Source: Planctomycetota bacterium
Lineage (GTDB): Bacteria > Planctomycetota > Phycisphaerae > Phycisphaerales > UBA5793
Assembly (NCBI GenBank): GCA_963205185.1
Contig: CAUJHZ010000046.1
Coordinates: 62,001 to 126,000, forward strand
Direction of reading: 5' to 3'
DNA: 64,000 nucleotides
Shown here: positions 18,456 to 27,934 of the stretch, piece by piece
How the letters are laid out: the number at the start of each line of letters is the position of its first letter
Numbering within the stretch: the first letter of the stretch is position 1
Position numbers and translations under genes: made by a program
The notes under the pieces: model-generated
The model's input: the letters and a program-made list of their open reading frames with translations, nothing else
What the model was told of the DNA's origin: nothing
Databases searched by the model: none

Positions 18456-18496
18456 TCCGTATCCTGATGCGACCGCCCCGGAGGGAATGTCCAATC

Positions 18497-19408
18497 GTGC
18501 TCAAGTTCACCAAGATGCACGGCATCGGCAACGACTACGTCTACCTTGACGCCGTGACCACCCCCGCCATCGCCGAGCGGACTGATCTGCCCGAACTGGC
18601 CCGGCGCCTTAGCGACCGGCACAAGGGCATCGGCTCGGATGGGCTCATCGTCATCGCCCGCCCGACAAGCCAGAGCGGGCTCACCGACGCCGTGCGGATG
18701 ATCATGTTCAACGCCGACGGCTCGGAAGGCGCCATGTGCGGCAACGGCATCCGCTGCGTCGCCAAGTTCGCCGTCGAGCACGCGCTGGTCTCAGTCAACG
18801 CGCGGCCGCTGCTGGTGGAAACAAAATCCGGCGTCAAGTCGATCGACTACACGATGGACAACGGTCGCGTGCTCAGCGCGACGGTGGACATGGGCGAGCC
18901 GATTCTCGATCTGCCGCGCATCCCCGTCAACGTCGAGCAACTCGACGAAGTCGGCGACGCCGGCGGCGTGCACCGCCTGAGCATCAAATCGCAGGGCCGG
19001 CGCTCGACCGACCCGCCCAAGACGCTTGAGGGAACATTCGTGAGCATGGGCAATCCGCACGCGGTGTTCTTTCATCCCGACGTCAACGCCATCAACCTCG
19101 AGACCATCGGGCCGCTCGTCGAGACGCACCCGGCGTTTCCCGACCGCGTCAACGTGCACTTCGTGCAATGCATTTCGCGGACCGAAGTGCGCATGCGAAC
19201 CTGGGAGCGCGGCAGCGGGATCACCATGGCGTGCGGCACGGGCGCGGCGGCGGTGTGCGTAGCCTGCGTCCTGCGCAGCCGCACCGAGCGGAGCATTCTC
19301 ATGCACCTGCCCGGAGGCGATCTGCGCATGGAGTGGCGCACTGGCGATCACCACGTCTACAAGACCGGGCCGGCTGAGGAAGTGTTCAGCGGAACGTGGG
19401 AAGAGTGA
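18497..19408 (+). CDS. dapF: Diaminopimelate epimerase
   Basis: The product has 303 residues. It interconverts LL- and meso-diaminopimelate using two cysteine acid/base residues: Cys81 (AMCGNGIRC) and Cys246 (MACGTGAAA). The N-terminal LKFTKMHGIGNDYVYLDAV is diagnostic. The start is taken as the GTG at 18497, because a GGAGGG stands 11 bases upstream and the family N-terminus begins there; an ATG at 18467 would add ten residues without a ribosome binding site. It lies directly downstream of dapA and upstream of an M20 peptidase gene. A stretch around residues 150-175 is longer than in E. coli DapF. Confidence 0.95.
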   Translation: MLKFTKMHGIGNDYVYLDAVTTPAIAERTDLPELARRLSDRHKGIGSDGLIVIARPTSQSGLTDAVRMIMFNADGSEGAMCGNGIRCVAKFAVEHALVSVNARPLLVETKSGVKSIDYTMDNGRVLSATVDMGEPILDLPRIPVNVEQLDEVGDAGGVHRLSIKSQGRRSTDPPKTLEGTFVSMGNPHAVFFHPDVNAINLETIGPLVETHPAFPDRVNVHFVQCISRTEVRMRTWERGSGITMACGTGAAAVCVACVLRSRTERSILMHLPGGDLRMEWRTGDHHVYKTGPAEEVFSGTWEE

Positions 19409-19438: not shown

Positions 19439-20644
19439 ATGCCGCTGAATGAACTGCAGCAACGCGTGCGCGATGATCTCGCCTGCTGCGGCGAGGCGAT
19501 GCTGGTCGAACTGGCCGAGCACGTGGCGATCCCCACGGGCAAAGGCTTCGAGCCGGGGTTGAATGCGTATCGCGAGATTCTCGTCGCGCGACTCGCGGCG
19601 CTCACCAACACCATCGACCGCATTCCCGGCGCAGCGCGGCCGTCGTGGATCGACGTCACGCCCCGGCCGCAATCAGCCCAGCCGCCCGTCACCATCATCG
19701 CCCGACATCACGTCAGTGATGCGCTGCCGCGACTGCTGCTCGCCGGTCACATCGACACCGTGCACGAGCCCGCCGGGTCGTTTCGCACCCTGACGGTTTC
19801 GCCTGATGGCAAGACCGCCGTCGGCCCGGGCGCTGCGGATATGAAGGGTGGCATTCTCATCGCACTGCACGCGCTTGAAGCACTGCACCGGTGCGGCGCG
19901 CAGATCAACTGGTCGTTCCTGCTCAACAGCGACGAGGAGACCGGGTCGTTTCACTCCGATCCGGCGCTCGAAGCCGAAGCAAAGCGCCATGACTTCGGCC
20001 TGGCGCTCGAACCGGCACTGCCCGGCGGCGCCCTGGCCATCGAACGCATGGGCAGCGGCCAGTTCAAGATCGAAGTGCACGGCCGCTCGGCGCACGTGGG
20101 GCGCGACTTTGCGTCGGGCATTTCGGCGGTGACGCGTCTGGGCGAGATCATCGCCGCGATCGGCTCCTGGCCGCGCCCCGCAGAGGGCGTCATCATCAAC
20201 ATTGGTCCGTTGCAGGGCGGCAGCGTGACCAACGCCGTCGCTGACTACGCCGCGTGCTGGGGCAACGTGCGCTTCGCTGATGAACGTGCTGCCGCGGAAC
20301 TCGAGACGAAACTTCTCGCTCTGGGCACGCCGGCGGATGTGCTGCCGCGTGTTGTGGTGCACCACCGCTGGAACCGGCCGGCCAAGCCGCTCATTCCCGC
20401 CACCCAGCAACTGGCCGACCGGGCCGCGGTCGTGGCCCGGTCGCTCGGCCAGGAACTGCCGTTTACGAAAACCGGCGGCGTGTGCGATGGCAACATCCTC
20501 CAGCACGCCGGTCTGCCGACCATCGACACGCTTGGCGTGCGCGGCGGCGGCCTGCACACCACCGACGAATGGATCGAGGTCGCGAGTCTGGTCGAGCGGA
20601 GCCAGTTGCTGGCGACCCTGATGCTGGCGCTTTCGGGCAATTGA
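19439..20644 (+). CDS. M20-family zinc metallopeptidase/deacylase
   Basis: The product has 401 residues with all five di-zinc positions of the M20 (carboxypeptidase G2/DapE/ArgE) group: His in LLLAGHIDTVHEP, bridging Asp in GPGAADMKGG, the EE pair in LLNSDEETGSFHSD, Glu in FGLALEPALPGG, and His in GGGLHTTDEWIE. The dimerisation domain with VHGRSAHVG is present. It looks closer to the carboxypeptidase G2 (glutamate-releasing) subgroup than to true DapE. It starts 30 bases after dapF, so a desuccinylase role in lysine synthesis is possible. It also immediately precedes the aminotransferase-astA-astD genes, where it could hydrolyse N-succinylglutamate. Family is firm, substrate is open. Confidence 0.88.
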   Translation: MPLNELQQRVRDDLACCGEAMLVELAEHVAIPTGKGFEPGLNAYREILVARLAALTNTIDRIPGAARPSWIDVTPRPQSAQPPVTIIARHHVSDALPRLLLAGHIDTVHEPAGSFRTLTVSPDGKTAVGPGAADMKGGILIALHALEALHRCGAQINWSFLLNSDEETGSFHSDPALEAEAKRHDFGLALEPALPGGALAIERMGSGQFKIEVHGRSAHVGRDFASGISAVTRLGEIIAAIGSWPRPAEGVIINIGPLQGGSVTNAVADYAACWGNVRFADERAAAELETKLLALGTPADVLPRVVVHHRWNRPAKPLIPATQQLADRAAVVARSLGQELPFTKTGGVCDGNILQHAGLPTIDTLGVRGGGLHTTDEWIEVASLVERSQLLATLMLALSGN

Positions 20645-20768
20645 GACCGCGTCGCAGGCGATCGCAGCCGCGAGAGGCAATCGGCGGGCTGAAAGTGCCG
20701 ATTATTCAGGTGTCTGCCGCATTCGCCGTTCACTCCGCCCCACCGCCTGACCCGGATACAGTCCTCCC

Positions 20769-22262
20769 ATGAACGCCAGCACCACCACCGCCGCCCCCGG
20801 CACCCGAGCCTCGAAACTCAACGCCAGCCCCATCGTCGAAGAGGCAATTGACCGCGCTATCGACGAAATCCGCAAAGTGCAGTCGGGCATCACCGCCGTA
20901 CGCCCGCCGCTGAGCGAAGAACTCGCGGCCAGATACCGGGAACTGCTCGCCCAAGCCAGCGAGGTGCGCGGCAAGAGTAAGCTCTTTTTCGATTACCACG
21001 GCTCGGGTCTGGGCAATGGACCTTTTGTCGAACTCGCCGATGGCTCGGTGAAGCTGGATCTCATCTGCGGCATCGGGCCGATGTTCTTCGGCCACAGCGA
21101 TCCGGAGTTGACGCGCATCGCCATGCGGGCCGCGATGAGCGATCTCGTCCTCCAGGGCAACCTGCAGATGAACGAAGACTCGACGCAGTTCTCGAATCTG
21201 CTCGTTGAAGAAGCGTCTCGCTGCAGTCGGTTGGCGCACGTATTCCTGACCAACTCGGGCTGCATGGCCAATGAATCAGCGCTGAAGATCTGCTACCAGA
21301 AGCATGCGCCCGCCAGCCGCGTCATCGCGTTTGAGAACTGCTTCATGGGCCGCAGCGTAACCATGAGTCAGATCGGCGACAACGCCGGCAATCGCGCCGG
21401 GATTCCGCTCTCCACGCTGGTCGACTACCTGCCCTTCTACGACGCAGAGCGCGGCGAGGCCTCGACGCGCGACGCTCTGGCCCGTCTCGACCGGCTCATC
21501 GAACGCTACCCCGGACAGCACGCGTGCATGATCTTCGAACTCGTCCAGGGCGAGGGCGGCTTCAATCCAGCGCCGCGCGAGTTCTTCGTCGCCCTCATGG
21601 AGCGGTGCAGGAAAGCCGGCATCGCCGTGTGGGTCGATGAAGTGCAGACCTTCGGCCGCACGGGCGAAATGTTTGCGTTCGACCTGCTCAAACTCGGCGA
21701 GTACGTGGATGTGTGCACGATCGGCAAACTGAGCCAGATCTGCGCATGCCTCTATTCGAAAGACTACAACCCCAAGCCCGGCCTGCTCAGCGGCACGTTC
21801 GTCGGCTCGACCGTGGCGATCCAGGTGGGCATGCACATTCTCGACACGTTGCGCAACGGAAACTACTACGGCGCGAACGGATCGATCGCGCAACACCACC
21901 AGCGCTTCGTGGCAGGCATCGAAGGCATCGCCTCGCGCCACCCGGAGTGGTTCGGCCCGATTCTCAGCCCCGACGACACGGCGATGAAGCACATAAAAGT
22001 TGCCGGCGGCCTGGGCGGAATGATGCGATTCACGCCGTTCGGCGGCCGCAAAGAGCCGGTGAACAAGTTCATGTACAACCTCTATGACGAGGGTGTGCTG
22101 TCGTTCTACTGCGGCCACGGGCCGTACCACATCCGCTTCCTGCCCCCGCTGGGCGTGATGAAACTTCAGCAGTGGGACGCGGCATTCGAGGTCGTTGAGC
22201 GGGCCCTGGCGCGCACGTTCGAAGAGATCAGCCGCAAAGAGGCGCCAAAGGCGCAGAATTGA
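20769..22262 (+). CDS. Class III PLP-dependent aminotransferase
   Basis: The product has 497 residues, about 90 longer than AstC/ArgD. It is an ornithine/acetylornithine-type fold I aminotransferase with PLP Lys320 (TIGKLSQICA), NSGCMANESALKICY for the cofactor phosphate, and GIAVWVDEVQTFGRTGEMFA carrying the PLP-pairing Asp. The extra length is an N-terminal extension of about 75 residues plus insertions. Next come astA and astD on the same strand, so the most economical role is the transamination of N2-succinylornithine to succinylglutamate semialdehyde (the AstC step). Lysine or gamma-aminobutyrate transamination remains possible. Intergenic distance to astA is 122 bases. Confidence 0.88.
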   Translation: MNASTTTAAPGTRASKLNASPIVEEAIDRAIDEIRKVQSGITAVRPPLSEELAARYRELLAQASEVRGKSKLFFDYHGSGLGNGPFVELADGSVKLDLICGIGPMFFGHSDPELTRIAMRAAMSDLVLQGNLQMNEDSTQFSNLLVEEASRCSRLAHVFLTNSGCMANESALKICYQKHAPASRVIAFENCFMGRSVTMSQIGDNAGNRAGIPLSTLVDYLPFYDAERGEASTRDALARLDRLIERYPGQHACMIFELVQGEGGFNPAPREFFVALMERCRKAGIAVWVDEVQTFGRTGEMFAFDLLKLGEYVDVCTIGKLSQICACLYSKDYNPKPGLLSGTFVGSTVAIQVGMHILDTLRNGNYYGANGSIAQHHQRFVAGIEGIASRHPEWFGPILSPDDTAMKHIKVAGGLGGMMRFTPFGGRKEPVNKFMYNLYDEGVLSFYCGHGPYHIRFLPPLGVMKLQQWDAAFEVVERALARTFEEISRKEAPKAQN

Positions 22263-22384
22263 GCCGAAGCGGCCGCGGATAATCGCCCACGCGGCGATTT
22301 CGCCGATAGAAGACGAATTCCCTGACTTGCTCTTATGACTCTTGAGCCTTTACGCGGCTGACCGAGCCGCCGGACCTGCCCGCC

Positions 22385-23449
22385 ATGTACGTCATCCGTC
22401 AAGCCCGGCCCGATGATGCCTCCATCCTGCTCAAACTGGCGCGGATGGTGCACTTCATCAACCTGCCGGCCGATCCCGAAATCATCGCCGACAAGATTCG
22501 CCGCTCGCAACTGAGTTTCGAAGGCGCGATCACGGACCTGACGCGCGCCATCTACATGTTCGCCATGGAGGATGACACCACCGGGAACCTGCTGGGCACG
22601 TCGCAGATCATTCCGCAGATCGGGACGCCCGAAGCGCCCAACACCTACTTCCAGGTCCGCAGCCGCACGATGTACGCCGACGACCTGCAGCAGGGCATGA
22701 CGCACACGACGCTCCAACTCGGCGCCGTGACAGACGGCCCGACCGAAGTCGGCGGACTCATCCTCGCACCGAGTTATCGCGGGCATCCGGCCCGGCTCGG
22801 CAAGACGCTTTCGCTCATCCGGTTCCACTACATGGGCCTCTACCCGGAGCGGTTCCGCGAGGAACTGCTCGCCGAGATGATGGCGCGACTCACGCCCGAG
22901 GGCACCAACGCCTTCTGGGAACACCTCGGCCGCCGGTTCATCAACCTCACGTACACGGAGGCGGATCGGCTCTCCTCGCGGTCCAAAGGGTTCATCCTGA
23001 AACTCATGCCCCACGAAGAGATCTACGTGACGATCCTGCCGCCCGAGGCGCGCATGCTCATCGGCAAAGTCGGCAAGGACACCGAGCCCGCCAAGGCGAT
23101 GCTCGAACGCATGGGCTTCAAGTACGAAGATCACATCGACCCCTTTGACGGCGGTCCGCACCTGCACGCGAAGACCGCGGATGTTTCCGTCGTGCGCGAC
23201 ACGAAGCGCCTGAAACTCGGCAAGGCGTGCACGAAGGCGCAGGCCAAAGGCGAAGCACTCGTAAGTTTCGAAAGCGAGGACGGCTTCCGCGCCGTCGCAA
23301 CGAGTGCGATGCTCAGCAGCGACGGCAAGTGCGTCCGCATTCCCCGCGACGAAATGAGGGCCATCCGCGCCAGCGAAGGCGATCGCGTCGGCTTCACGCC
23401 GCTGAGCAAAGGCGAGCGCAAGCGCGGCGGGCAACGCAAGCGAGCCTGA
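22385..23449 (+). CDS. astA: Arginine/ornithine N-succinyltransferase
   Basis: The product has 354 residues. AstA/AruF-type GNAT enzymes move the succinyl group from succinyl-CoA to the alpha-amino group of arginine (and of ornithine in some species), opening the AST catabolic route. Family landmarks are YVIRQARPDDASILLKLA, EVGGLILAPSYRG with GKTLSLIRFHYM, AEMMARLTPEGTNAFWEHLG, RRFINLTYTEADRLS, IYVTILPPEAR and IDPFDGGPHLHA. The start ATG at 22385 fits the family. The C-terminus ends in a basic run (KGERKRGGQRKRA). It lies between an aminotransferase and astD; astB was not found in the window. Confidence 0.93.
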   Translation: MYVIRQARPDDASILLKLARMVHFINLPADPEIIADKIRRSQLSFEGAITDLTRAIYMFAMEDDTTGNLLGTSQIIPQIGTPEAPNTYFQVRSRTMYADDLQQGMTHTTLQLGAVTDGPTEVGGLILAPSYRGHPARLGKTLSLIRFHYMGLYPERFREELLAEMMARLTPEGTNAFWEHLGRRFINLTYTEADRLSSRSKGFILKLMPHEEIYVTILPPEARMLIGKVGKDTEPAKAMLERMGFKYEDHIDPFDGGPHLHAKTADVSVVRDTKRLKLGKACTKAQAKGEALVSFESEDGFRAVATSAMLSSDGKCVRIPRDEMRAIRASEGDRVGFTPLSKGERKRGGQRKRA

Positions 23450-23511
23450 GCGTCCGCATCGCCGCACTTGAAGCAGAGTTCTCTGCCGGGCTTGCGGTCA
23501 TACGATCGTCC

Positions 23512-25038
23512 ATGGTTCACTCTTCACTGCTCGAGCGGGCCCCGGCGAACTACATCGACGGACGGTGGATCGAACTGGCCGCGGGCGATGGCATCACCTC
23601 GACGAATCCCGCAGCGCCCGATGAGATCATCTGGCAGGCCGCGTCGAACATCGCGCATGTCGGCGAGGCGGTCGCGGCGGCGCGGCGGGCGGCGCCGGGC
23701 TGGGCGCAGCTGTCCATCGCCCGGCGGCACGAATACCTCCGCCGCTACCAGCAGGTCGTCAAGGCGCATCTTGATCGCATCGCGGGACTGATCTGCGACG
23801 AGAGCGGCAAGACCATGGCCGAGTCGCGCTTTGAAGCGAACGCCCTTATCGGCAAGGTGGACATCACGCTCGATACAGACGGCGCGCTCGGCCGCATCAC
23901 CGACTTTGAAGTGCCTGTCAGCGCGACGCGGCGTGGAATCAACCGCTTCAAGCCGCACGGGGTCATGGCCGTCGTCGGCCCGTTCAACTTTCCCGCCCAC
24001 CTGCCCAACGGCCACTTCATTCCGGCGCTGGCCGCGGGCAACACGATCGTCTTCAAGCCCAGCGATAAGACGCCCGCCGTCGGACAGGCGATCGCCGAAG
24101 TGTGGCACGAAGTTGGTCTGCCGCCGGGCGTCTTCAATCTTGTGCAGGGCGCCGCGGATGTCGCTTCGACGCTGGTGGGCCACGAGGGTATCGACGGCAT
24201 TCTCTTCACCGGCTCGTGGGGCGTCGGCCGGCGCATTCTCGAAGCCAACCTCGATCGGCCGGGGCGCATCGTCGCGCTGGAGATGGGCGGCAACAACGCG
24301 GCCGTCGTCCTGGACGACGCCGATCTCCGCCAGGCGGTGATCGAGTGCGTGCGGGCCGGCTTTGCGACCACGGGGCAGCGCTGCACCTGCACGCGGCGGG
24401 TGATTGTGCACGAAAGGATCGCCGATCGATTCCGCCGGGCGTTTGTCAAGGCGGCGCGCAGCCTGACGATCGGGCCCGGCCGCAGCGAGCCGGGAGCATT
24501 CATGGGCCCGGTCATCAGCGAGGCGACCGTGCGGGCGGTGATTGACTTTCAGAAGCGCCTGGTGCAGCGCGGCGGGCAGATCCTGCTCGAAGCGCGCAAA
24601 CCTGACCTCCCGGGACACTTCGTCTCCCCGGCGATTGTGCAGGTGGACGGCGCACAATACAGGCCCGGCGACGCCGAGCACGATTGCGAGGTCTTCGGCC
24701 CGCTCGTGCAACTGAGCACCTGCCGCGATCTGGATCACGCCATCGCCCAGGCGAACGCGACTCATTACGGCCTGGCGGCGGCGATCTTCACGCGCGACGC
24801 CGAGGCGGCGGAGAGCTTCTTCTGGCAGGTGCGGGCCGGGTGCATCAATTGGAACACCGGCACGGCCGGCGCTTCGAGCAAACTCGCATTCGGCGGCCTG
24901 GGCCACAGCGGCAACCACCGACCGGCCGGGGCGTTCAGCGTGGACTACTGCGCGTACCCGGTGGCGGCCATGGTTGAATCTTCGAGCGAGGCGCCAGTCC
25001 CCGCCGGCATGGCTTTCGACGACGCCTGGCTGGACTGA
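23512..25038 (+). CDS. astD: N-succinylglutamate 5-semialdehyde dehydrogenase
   Basis: The product has 508 residues. AstD is an NAD(P)-dependent aldehyde dehydrogenase that oxidises succinylglutamate semialdehyde to succinylglutamate. The catalytic Cys291 sits in the AstD-specific GQRCTCTRR, the general base Glu in VALEMGGNNAAV, and the cofactor loop in FTGSWGVGRRI. Also typical are YIDGRWIE at the N-terminus and VVGPFNFPAHLPNGHFIPAL. The ATG at 23512 is preferred; a long frame upstream overlaps astA in another frame and is spurious. It is the last gene of the plus-strand catabolic run and is followed by a strong palindromic terminator. Confidence 0.94.
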   Translation: MVHSSLLERAPANYIDGRWIELAAGDGITSTNPAAPDEIIWQAASNIAHVGEAVAAARRAAPGWAQLSIARRHEYLRRYQQVVKAHLDRIAGLICDESGKTMAESRFEANALIGKVDITLDTDGALGRITDFEVPVSATRRGINRFKPHGVMAVVGPFNFPAHLPNGHFIPALAAGNTIVFKPSDKTPAVGQAIAEVWHEVGLPPGVFNLVQGAADVASTLVGHEGIDGILFTGSWGVGRRILEANLDRPGRIVALEMGGNNAAVVLDDADLRQAVIECVRAGFATTGQRCTCTRRVIVHERIADRFRRAFVKAARSLTIGPGRSEPGAFMGPVISEATVRAVIDFQKRLVQRGGQILLEARKPDLPGHFVSPAIVQVDGAQYRPGDAEHDCEVFGPLVQLSTCRDLDHAIAQANATHYGLAAAIFTRDAEAAESFFWQVRAGCINWNTGTAGASSKLAFGGLGHSGNHRPAGAFSVDYCAYPVAAMVESSSEAPVPAGMAFDDAWLD

Positions 25039-25061
25039 CATCGCGGTCCGCGCAAATAAGA

Positions 25062-25087
25062 AGACCCCGGCGAATTCGCCGGGGTCT
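25062..25087. terminator. Perfect 26-base palindrome, bidirectional terminator
   Basis: AGACCCCGGCGAA is followed directly by its exact reverse complement TTCGCCGGGGTCT. The palindrome lies in the 76 bases between the convergent ends of astD and the haloperoxidase gene, with AATAAGA on one side. It probably terminates both transcripts. Confidence 0.8.
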
Positions 25088-25114
25088 GTGGCACAGGTAC
25101 AGGATGCACGAGCG

Positions 25115-26683
25115 TCAGCGCGGGAAGTAGCCTTCCACGAGATTGCTGATGGTGCAGGTCGGCCTCTGGACCGCCTGGCCATAGCGGGTTTGATTGCGGA
25201 AGGCCGGCGGCACGCGGTGATCCACCACGACGTAGCCGTTCGCGTCCGCAACGCACCGGCCGAAGCGACGGGGCCGACGGAGTTCAATGTACACACCGGG
25301 GCACGCGCGAAGCTCACGTGAGCCGATTTCGCGATCCCAGAAGAAGTACACGAGCGATCCCGGCGTGAAGTTGAACGCCTCGAACACGTTGATGTACTCG
25401 GTCCGGTAGTAGGTCGGCAGGCAGAGGATCGGCCCATTGCTCGTCACGGGCTGGAAGAAGTTGTCCTGGATGTAATCCGCCAGGTCGCGACCGTTCTGCT
25501 GCGCGTTCTGGTTCGAGAACTCGTAGTGGATGCCGCCGTAGATGCGGCTGCGGCCGGCCTCTTCCGCGGCCTCGGTGAACGAGTCGTAGTACCGCGGAAT
25601 GCCGGGCAGGGTATCGGAAACATCGACAAAGGACAGGTGATCGGTCCCGAACTCATTGGCCAGGATCTTGGCCGCGGCAGCACTGAAGGTGCTGTGGCCT
25701 GAGGTGTACTCAGGGAACGGCGGCGTCACGACGAAACTCGACCACGTGGGATCGGGCTCGGTCAGCGGATTGTTGTCCTGATCGGCGAGGGTGATGGCAT
25801 GGAACGGGCGCCACAGGCTGTAGTTGTACTTGTTGTCCCAGCAGAGAATCGCAGCATCAGCCATCGCAACGTTCAACTTCGCGAACAGCAGCGCGTTCTT
25901 GCCCAGGCCGTAACCGAGCGATTCAGAGCAATTCTCCGCGATCATGTTCCAGTGGCCCGGCGGCGTGCAGGTGCCGGGGTTGTCGGACCAGAACAGCGCG
26001 ATCTCGGACTGATCGGCGGTGCGGCTCTGGCTGTCCACGCGACCGAGATCCTTGACCTCGTTCACGTCGGTGCCGTATTGAACGCTGTCCAGCGCCGGCG
26101 GAGCCGGTGCCCGGAACTGCGAGCCGCTCGTCATTGCCCAAGGCGTGACCAGCGGCCACTGGGGCAGCAGAGCGGGAGCGTAGTTGGGAGGCGTCGGCCG
26201 CCACTGCCCGGGCAGCGTGCCGGGCGTGTATTCGACATGGCGATCCCAGCCATCATTGGCGCGCAGGTCAATGATCTGCTGCGCAACGTACTCACCCAGC
26301 GCGATGCCATCGGTCTTCGCCGGGCTGTCGGCTACGGTCTTGAGCGACTCATAGAGATGGAAGTCGAAAAACTCCACCTGATCCGGATAGAGGCTGACGA
26401 GCACGTTGTAAGCCGCCGTCGCAGCGGCCGCCTCGCGCGAGGTGTTGTACGCCGGCTGCGAGACCACGAAGTATGGCTCGTGCGCGCCGTCGATGGCATT
26501 GACGGCGTCGTAGATCGCCACATGCATCATCGCCAGGGCGCGGGTCGCCATGGGCGGGTTGGTGCGCGTCTCACGGATGGTGTCGATCGCGACGCGATTC
26601 CACCGAATGACCAAGTCCGTCCCGCCGAAGCAAGGAGCGGCGGCGCCGACGGCGGCAACAACACAAAACAACAGCTTTTTCAT
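25115..26683 (-). CDS. Secreted vanadium-dependent haloperoxidase-like (PAP2) protein
   Basis: The product has 522 residues with a signal peptide (MKKLLFCVVAAVGAAAPCFG) and a GGGGAG seven bases before the ATG. It is all-helical with the three vanadate/phosphate-binding motifs of the vanadium haloperoxidase/PAP2 superfamily: K-x6-RP (KYNYSLWRPFHAI), SGH (EYTSGHSTFSAAA) and SR-x5-H (SRIYGGIHYEF). Members oxidise halides with peroxide or act as acid phosphatases; sequence does not decide which. After the core domain comes a C-terminal segment of about 85 residues not typical of the family. It is convergent with astD across a palindromic terminator and divergent from the ureohydrolase gene. Confidence 0.9.
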   Translation of the reverse strand: MKKLLFCVVAAVGAAAPCFGGTDLVIRWNRVAIDTIRETRTNPPMATRALAMMHVAIYDAVNAIDGAHEPYFVVSQPAYNTSREAAAATAAYNVLVSLYPDQVEFFDFHLYESLKTVADSPAKTDGIALGEYVAQQIIDLRANDGWDRHVEYTPGTLPGQWRPTPPNYAPALLPQWPLVTPWAMTSGSQFRAPAPPALDSVQYGTDVNEVKDLGRVDSQSRTADQSEIALFWSDNPGTCTPPGHWNMIAENCSESLGYGLGKNALLFAKLNVAMADAAILCWDNKYNYSLWRPFHAITLADQDNNPLTEPDPTWSSFVVTPPFPEYTSGHSTFSAAAAKILANEFGTDHLSFVDVSDTLPGIPRYYDSFTEAAEEAGRSRIYGGIHYEFSNQNAQQNGRDLADYIQDNFFQPVTSNGPILCLPTYYRTEYINVFEAFNFTPGSLVYFFWDREIGSRELRACPGVYIELRRPRRFGRCVADANGYVVVDHRVPPAFRNQTRYGQAVQRPTCTISNLVEGYFPR

Positions 26684-26977
26684 CTTCTGACTCCCCTCAT
26701 CTCTGAGACTTTGTCTAACCCTGAGCCAACGATTGCAGGAACCTCGCCGCGGCTTGACCGTCCCGCGCGATGCTCCCGCATCATTTCCAATTCCGCAATC
26801 TGACGCTATAAGGATGCGTCAAACTGCACAAAAGTCAAGGCTAAACAGCCGTACCGGACGAAAAACTCCTCTGAAAAGTCCATTTCGGGGAATTGGACCC
26901 CATCTTTTCGGACACAGACGCGAGCGGTTCCCAACAAACTGCTGACTTCCGCCCCGCCGACACGCTAGCCTATCCCC
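26684..26977. promoter_or_regulatory. Divergent intergenic region, haloperoxidase/ureohydrolase
   Basis: These 294 bases separate two divergently transcribed genes and are visibly less GC-rich than the flanks, notably around 26800-26890 (TATAAGGATGCGTCAAACTG and following). Promoters for both genes must lie here. I see no convincing paired -35/-10 boxes, no operator palindrome and no small gene. Confidence 0.4.
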
Positions 26978-27934
26978 ATGGCCGAACCGCCCAAAACCCG
27001 CCTGCCCAATGCCCGCCAGTTTCCCCGTTTCGCGGGTATCTCCACGTTTTGCCGCTTCCCGCTGATCGAAACACTCGAAACGCCTCCCGACTGGGCGCTG
27101 TACGGCATTCCCTTCGACGGCGGTGTGACTTATCGGCCCGGGGCCCGGTTCGGGCCGCGGGCCATCCGCGAGCAGTCCGCCTACGTCAAGCCCTACCACC
27201 TGGAACACGATCTGAATCTCGCCGAACGGCTCAGCATGTGCGACGCCGGCGATGCGCCGGTGCGGCCGTACTCGACGCGCGAGACCCAGCAGGCCGCGTG
27301 CGATTTTGCACTGGGGCTGGGCGATGCGAGCACGAGGCTGCTGGCGGTGGGCGGCGACCATTCGATCGCTTTGGCCAATCTGCGCGCCACGCAGCAACGT
27401 CACGGAGGCGGGCGCCCGCTGGCGGTGCTGCACTTCGATTCTCACCTCGACACCGTCGATGTCGCGTGGGGCGAAAAGTACACCCACGCGTCGCCGTTCA
27501 TTCGCGCCATCGAAGAAAACCTCATCGACCCCAGGCAAATGCTCTCCGTGGGCATCAAGGGACCACTCAATACCGCAACCGATCTCGACTACGGCCGCGC
27601 GCAAGGCATCGAACTCGTCACCTGGGCCGATTGGAAGCATCGCAGCGGCGTCGAGCGCATCGAACGTTTCCTCGAGCGGCTGCGCCAGAGCGGCGATCCG
27701 GTGTATCTCACCTTCGACATCGATTCGGTCGATCCGGCCTACGCGCCCGGCACCGGCACGCCGTCGATCGGCGGCTTCACCTCGGCCGAAGCGCTCGATC
27801 TGCTTCGCACCTGCCGGGGCGTGAATCTCGTCGGCGCCGATGTGGTCGAAGTGCTGCCCGCGATGGACCCGGCCGGCATCACCGCGCTGCTCGCGGCCCA
27901 CATCATCTTCGAAATCCTGTGCATCGCGGCGTAG
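26978..27934 (+). CDS. Ureohydrolase of the agmatinase/guanidinobutyrase type
   Basis: The product has 318 residues and belongs to the arginase superfamily, binuclear manganese enzymes that release urea from guanidino compounds. All metal motifs are present: GGDHSIALAN, HFDSHLDTVD (the usual DAHxD with Ser for Ala) and LTFDIDSVDPAYAPGTGTPS. The N-terminal YGIPFDGGVTYRPGARFGPR and GEKYTHASPFIRA are more typical of agmatinase or guanidinobutyrase than of arginase. Substrate could be agmatine, guanidinobutyrate or arginine. It starts about 1.9 kb beyond the astA-astD genes, across the haloperoxidase, and so may belong to the same arginine-related metabolism. It converges on leuS with only six bases between stops. 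Confidence 0.9.
   Translation: MAEPPKTRLPNARQFPRFAGISTFCRFPLIETLETPPDWALYGIPFDGGVTYRPGARFGPRAIREQSAYVKPYHLEHDLNLAERLSMCDAGDAPVRPYSTRETQQAACDFALGLGDASTRLLAVGGDHSIALANLRATQQRHGGGRPLAVLHFDSHLDTVDVAWGEKYTHASPFIRAIEENLIDPRQMLSVGIKGPLNTATDLDYGRAQGIELVTWADWKHRSGVERIERFLERLRQSGDPVYLTFDIDSVDPAYAPGTGTPSIGGFTSAEALDLLRTCRGVNLVGADVVEVLPAMDPAGITALLAAHIIFEILCIAA

Follow-up and report, generated by a model that had tools for sequence, protein, structure and literature searches.

A ureohydrolase has replaced AstB repeatedly within the Phycisphaerales, in at least eight independent swaps. One such gene lies in the window (the whole stretch of 64,000 nucleotides analysed here), close to four genes that with it would make up the arginine succinyltransferase (AST) pathway with two enzymes replaced, the ureohydrolase taking the place of AstB and an M20-family hydrolase that of AstE. 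We put the probability of this reading, in which the ureohydrolase is a predicted N2-succinyl-L-arginine amidinohydrolase exchanged many times with the unrelated AstB, at about 0.7. In the proposed scheme, AstA would convert arginine to N2-succinylarginine, which the ureohydrolase, and not AstB, would split into N2-succinylornithine and urea. The class III aminotransferase would then form N2-succinylglutamate semialdehyde, AstD would turn this into N-succinylglutamate, and the M20 enzyme, and not AstE, would release glutamate and succinate. These reactions, and succinylarginine as the substrate of the ureohydrolase, are predictions throughout. That the ureohydrolase fills the place of AstB, in one order of steps or another, we regard as highly probable.

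The five open reading frames are intact, and their order on one strand (M20, aminotransferase, astA, astD, then the ureohydrolase) is as the initial annotation had described it (Table 1). AstA, present in a single copy in the host genome, matches its Pfam family over its whole length and shares 32% identity with E. coli AstA along its length, while scoring 206 bits against TIGR03244 (cut-off 391). The best models for AstD are NF006992 (501 bits, cut-off 514) and TIGR03240 (478 bits, cut-off 579), with other aldehyde dehydrogenase models about 180 bits lower. The aminotransferase reaches 135 bits with the argD subfamily model and 80 bits with the astC model TIGR03246, the cut-off of which is 610. 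None of the three proteins reaches the curated cut-offs set for the proteobacterial Ast models, so we take them to be divergent members; AstA and AstD are nonetheless clear members of their families. The opposite-strand gene separating astD from the ureohydrolase matches no Pfam or NCBIfam model at 1e-5, and a congener carries an 80% identical counterpart in the same place (L041).

Table 1. Genes of the cluster and its neighbourhood, with positions in the window.
Gene product	Position	Strand	Family models
DapF, upstream neighbour of the cluster	18467..19408	+	TIGR00652, 270 bits
M20-family metallohydrolase, proposed N-succinylglutamate desuccinylase in the place of AstE	19439..20644	+	PF01546; NF005602/PRK07338
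Class III aminotransferase, proposed N2-succinylornithine 5-aminotransferase in the place of AstC	20769..22262	+	PF00202
AstA, arginine/ornithine N-succinyltransferase	22385..23449	+	PF04958, 316 bits
AstD, N-succinylglutamate 5-semialdehyde dehydrogenase	23512..25038	+	NF006992; TIGR03240
Product of the gene between AstD and the ureohydrolase, called a haloperoxidase in the initial annotation	25115..26683	-	
Ureohydrolase, proposed N2-succinylarginine amidinohydrolase in the place of AstB	26978..27934	+	PF00491, 275 bits; TIGR01230

The host genome (4.55 Mb, a draft of 76 contigs, 97.4% complete) has no match to AstB (PF04996), with E. coli and Caulobacter as positive controls, and none to AstE (TIGR03242), with E. 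coli as positive control. The lack of both genes, which had been claimed from the window, is thus borne out by a search of the whole genome. To follow the exchange across genomes, we surveyed a class sample of 298 genomes and a denser, overlapping order sample of 325, and counted as members of the ureohydrolase clade proteins scoring above 500 bits (the next best score was 192). AstA occurs in 75 genomes of the class sample, AstB in 48 and the ureohydrolase in 28. Among the 75 with AstA, 45 have AstB only, 28 have the ureohydrolase only and none has both; no AstA-negative genome carries the ureohydrolase. Neither enzyme is found in the remaining two, the 58%-complete G163 and G131. The latter, 98% complete, has consecutive genes for M20, aminotransferase, AstA and AstD (L042, C14:330700-350600), and it either uses ornithine only or has a third solution to the AstB step.

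The order sample gives the same picture: the ureohydrolase is present in 137 genomes and AstB in 116, and a single genome has both, where chance predicts 48.9 (Fisher p = 8e-36, relatedness ignored). In the class and order samples the two enzymes are nearly mutually exclusive; the initial annotation had proposed to examine gene co-occurrence across the phylum. In the one exception, G478, 3 kb separate the ureohydrolase from astA, and AstB, 56% identical to the AstB of family f2, is on a separate contig (L279, L280); the genome may be in transition between the two states, or it may be wrongly binned. An AstA tree of 72 rows, 67 of them within one 100/100 clade, requires at least eight changes between the AstB and ureohydrolase states on supported branches. 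When we corrected for relatedness, eight of eight independent pairs switched in opposite directions (sign test p = 0.008). Three genera of the order sample (g2, g28 and g260) include both AstB species and ureohydrolase species.

The ureohydrolase gene lies within 10 kb of astA, often directly after astD, in 16 of the 28 genomes and is unlinked to it in the other 12; such proximity is never seen in AstB genomes. Named public genomes (L167, L168, L171, L182, L189, L191 and L192) likewise carry it close to ast genes. Among the best 80 loci of our scan, those beyond the clade are mostly actinobacterial proteins of at most 49% identity with no AstA nearby, and on these sequences the clade appears to be confined to Phycisphaerales-type MAGs. 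A MAG titled Singulisphaera sp. GP187 has a Phycisphaerales-type AstD-ureohydrolase pair (L188), and its title is probably wrong. We also considered an in-place swap at the AstB locus and rejected it: AstB loci and unlinked ureohydrolase loci have scattered neighbours in common, and no shared site.

The ureohydrolase has the arginase-type binuclear manganese ligand motifs GGDH (127-128), DxHxD (154-158) and DxD (247-249), which are invariant in all aligned relatives. By profile, the window protein and its clade are closest to guanidinopropionase, guanidinobutyrase and proclavaminate amidinohydrolase (PAH), with 343 bits for 3nip versus 171 for plant arginase and about 105 for bacterial arginase. 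The substrates of these three enzymes lack a free alpha-amino acid head. An AlphaFold2 model (pLDDT 92.6) finds 3niq, 3nip, 1gq6 and 3nio as its top fold matches, the best at a TM-score of about 0.87 to 3niq. GpuA (3nip) and GbuA (3nio), the nearest solved structures in both sequence and fold, share the metal-ligand motifs at 36-41% identity, but the Asn of DxHxDxN is Val in the window protein, and its genome context is that of the ast genes and not of guanidinobutyrate or guanidinopropionate use. PAH (1gq6) belongs to the same ureohydrolase branch, with 40% identity by structural alignment, and acts on an arginine derivative with an acylated alpha-nitrogen, although in clavulanate biosynthesis, whereas the window protein stands in a catabolic context.

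The known recognition residues of arginases are lacking as well. The alpha-carboxylate is recognized through Asn130 in animal and bacterial arginases, and through a Ser-Thr-Asn motif plus Tyr191 in plant arginase (PMC8125230, PMC7370999). In our alignment, the position equivalent to Asn130/Tyr191 is V160 in the window protein and Val, Ala, Leu or Ile in the clade, so that the arginase residue is absent; the plant Ser-Thr-Asn motif is absent too, and loop L2 reads S-[QA]-Y-x-[KR]. Lys71 is conserved in the clade, where the outgroup has Arg. Compared with the nearest outgroup in the alignment, the ureohydrolase has the changes W160V, Y163V and Y198N; the clade has small residues at these three positions, which suggests that its substrate pocket may be wider. 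Most of the clade has gained an Arg at 296, a position occupied by Met in the window protein.

If the ureohydrolase were itself an arginase, it would make free ornithine and urea, AstA would succinylate the ornithine, and the rest would run as in AST without AstB. This order of steps, which the initial annotation had proposed, would explain the loss of AstB as well, and would yield the same products. The AstA of E. coli and P. aeruginosa accepts ornithine in addition to arginine, so an unchanged AstA could also serve an arginase-first order (PMC12375414, PMC9007349). In A. baumannii, astNOP encodes a dedicated ornithine succinyltransferase, AstO, and in that species ornithine is known to enter AST without AstB (PMC12375414); astNOP, however, is an additional operon in a genome that also has the complete astCADBE, whereas here AstB is absent, a ureohydrolase is present instead and AstA is single copy. 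The host also has no other arginase-like gene. Nevertheless, without AstB any free arginine that AstA went on to succinylate would reach a dead end, and the enzyme sits far from arginases in profile scores and lacks both of their recognition sets. Moreover, an arginase and AstB could well exist side by side, whereas the ureohydrolase and AstB are hardly ever found in one genome. We consider ornithine-first possible but less likely than hydrolysis of succinylarginine.

AstA itself bears on this choice, as it is 74-85% identical between AstB and ureohydrolase species of the same genus. No AstA residue changes with the switch beyond chance (the best does so in 4 of 10 pairs, and the usual null maximum is 4), a comparison of limited power. 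With AstA so little changed and no residue changing recurrently, it should still make succinylarginine. Thus, succinylarginine-first is favoured because AstA is much alike in AstB species, where succinylarginine is obligatory, and in their ureohydrolase-bearing sisters, because the switches bring no recurrent change at any position of AstA, and because the ureohydrolase resembles guanidino-acid hydrolases; direct substitution for AstB also explains the near-total mutual exclusion. Counting against direct substitution are the NCBIfam agmatinase score, Met296, the 12 of 28 unlinked genes, G478 and the opposite-strand gene that separates astD from the ureohydrolase in the window. Of the earlier claim, then, the part that made the ureohydrolase a pathway member standing in for AstB stands, and the part that had it supply free ornithine to AstA is the less likely one.

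Three further features of AstA came to light. In family f2 (for example L081, L082 and L064), the PF04958 alignment is often split near position 50, in AstB and ureohydrolase species alike; this suggests an insertion in that region. Second copies of AstA occur in G240 and G078 (L087, L088, L091, L092), and in G240 one copy is beside AstB and the other is not. The second AstA of G119 and of G279 is a very remote homologue, at 54-58 bits.

Could the ureohydrolase be an ordinary agmatinase of polyamine synthesis, linked to ast by accident? It passes the NCBIfam agmatinase model TIGR01230 (193 bits, cut-off 174.3), and speA is present in most of the genomes. However, the model is broad, and the window protein is not the host's only ureohydrolase. 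Of the two others, one lies about 40 bases 3' of speA and passes TIGR01230 as an agmatinase too, and the other overlaps hutI, with HutG as its best model, so the polyamine and histidine roles are already filled. In addition, speA occurs in AstB genomes as well and was not found in the ureohydrolase-bearing G096 and G294, and an agmatinase leaves the exclusion of AstB unexplained. We therefore find this reading very improbable. The use of agmatine-derived amines, also raised in the initial annotation, we reject, as speA has its own agmatinase neighbour.

The M20 protein has NF005602/PRK07338, a 'hydrolase', as its best curated model, below whose cut-off it falls (327 bits versus 357), and carboxypeptidase G2 as its closest solved structure, a likeness that had already been recognized. 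Three families of the order, f1, f2 and f5, conserve the cluster of M20, aminotransferase, AstA and AstD, and in most relatives the aminotransferase is kept between M20 and AstA. In several genomes of f4, f10 and f12, other families of the class, M20 or the aminotransferase accompanies AstA with AstB adjacent. As M20 goes with AST regardless of AstB, it is a natural stand-in for AstE, which is over its cut-off in none of the 298 class genomes. We thus agree that it is the best candidate and likely the desuccinylase of the pathway, with N-succinylglutamate as an inferred substrate.

In the genomes of f1 and f5, and in some of f2, DapF is encoded directly upstream of M20. M20 or the aminotransferase might also serve diaminopimelate synthesis. 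A cluster devoted to lysine and diaminopimelate, with M20 as DapE and the aminotransferase as DapC beside dapA and dapF, would fit this conserved neighbour, the membership of DapE among M20 proteins and the below-cut-off score of the host DapL (TIGR03542 type). It would leave no place for AstA and AstD, though, and the succinylarginine-specific AstB alternates with the ureohydrolase in genomes having the same cluster. DapL is above cut-off in most f5 genomes tested, yet the cluster is kept, and M20 scores far lower on the DapE models (TIGR01900, 74 bits versus a cut-off of 304; NF009557, 72 versus 284; TIGR01246, 50 versus 362). We give this explanation little credence. As for AstB having merely dropped out of an incomplete MAG, the host is a draft, but its completeness, the lack of AstB in the four congeners searched as well and in nearly all other ureohydrolase genomes, including the single-contig G167 and G261, and the class and order surveys rule this out: the missing AstB is a recurrent pathway variant.

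Compared with astCADBE of E. coli and the aru genes of P. aeruginosa, the cluster shares homologues of AstA and AstD, a class III aminotransferase and, as its proposed end products, glutamate and succinate. It differs in having no AstB, so that the guanidino group would not be lost as CO2 and ammonia, no AstE, a ureohydrolase and an M20 hydrolase instead, and an aminotransferase that is not of the astC model. Since it follows the logic of AST but is without two of its five defining enzymes, we regard it as a pathway variant and not as a plain member.

In the literature searched, in which subscription journals were little represented, we found no paper linking succinylarginine with a ureohydrolase, arginase or urea, and none combining Phycisphaer* with succinyltransferase; a search on AstE and M20 proteins gave nothing pertinent. 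The GapMind paper treats AST, and we found no substitute for AstB there. The predicted activity, N2-succinyl-L-arginine amidinohydrolase, is thus absent from the literature searched. If our reading is true, many Phycisphaerales genomes would encode arginine catabolic enzymes that annotation labels 'agmatinase' and 'M20 hydrolase', and any pathway tool demanding AstB and AstE would wrongly score arginine use as absent. The fate of nitrogen would also differ between species, with urea released by the ureohydrolase and CO2 plus two ammonia by AstB. One pathway step would then have two non-homologous, freely exchanged solutions, a natural experiment in which a single catabolic step has been filled repeatedly by either of two unrelated enzymes within one order.
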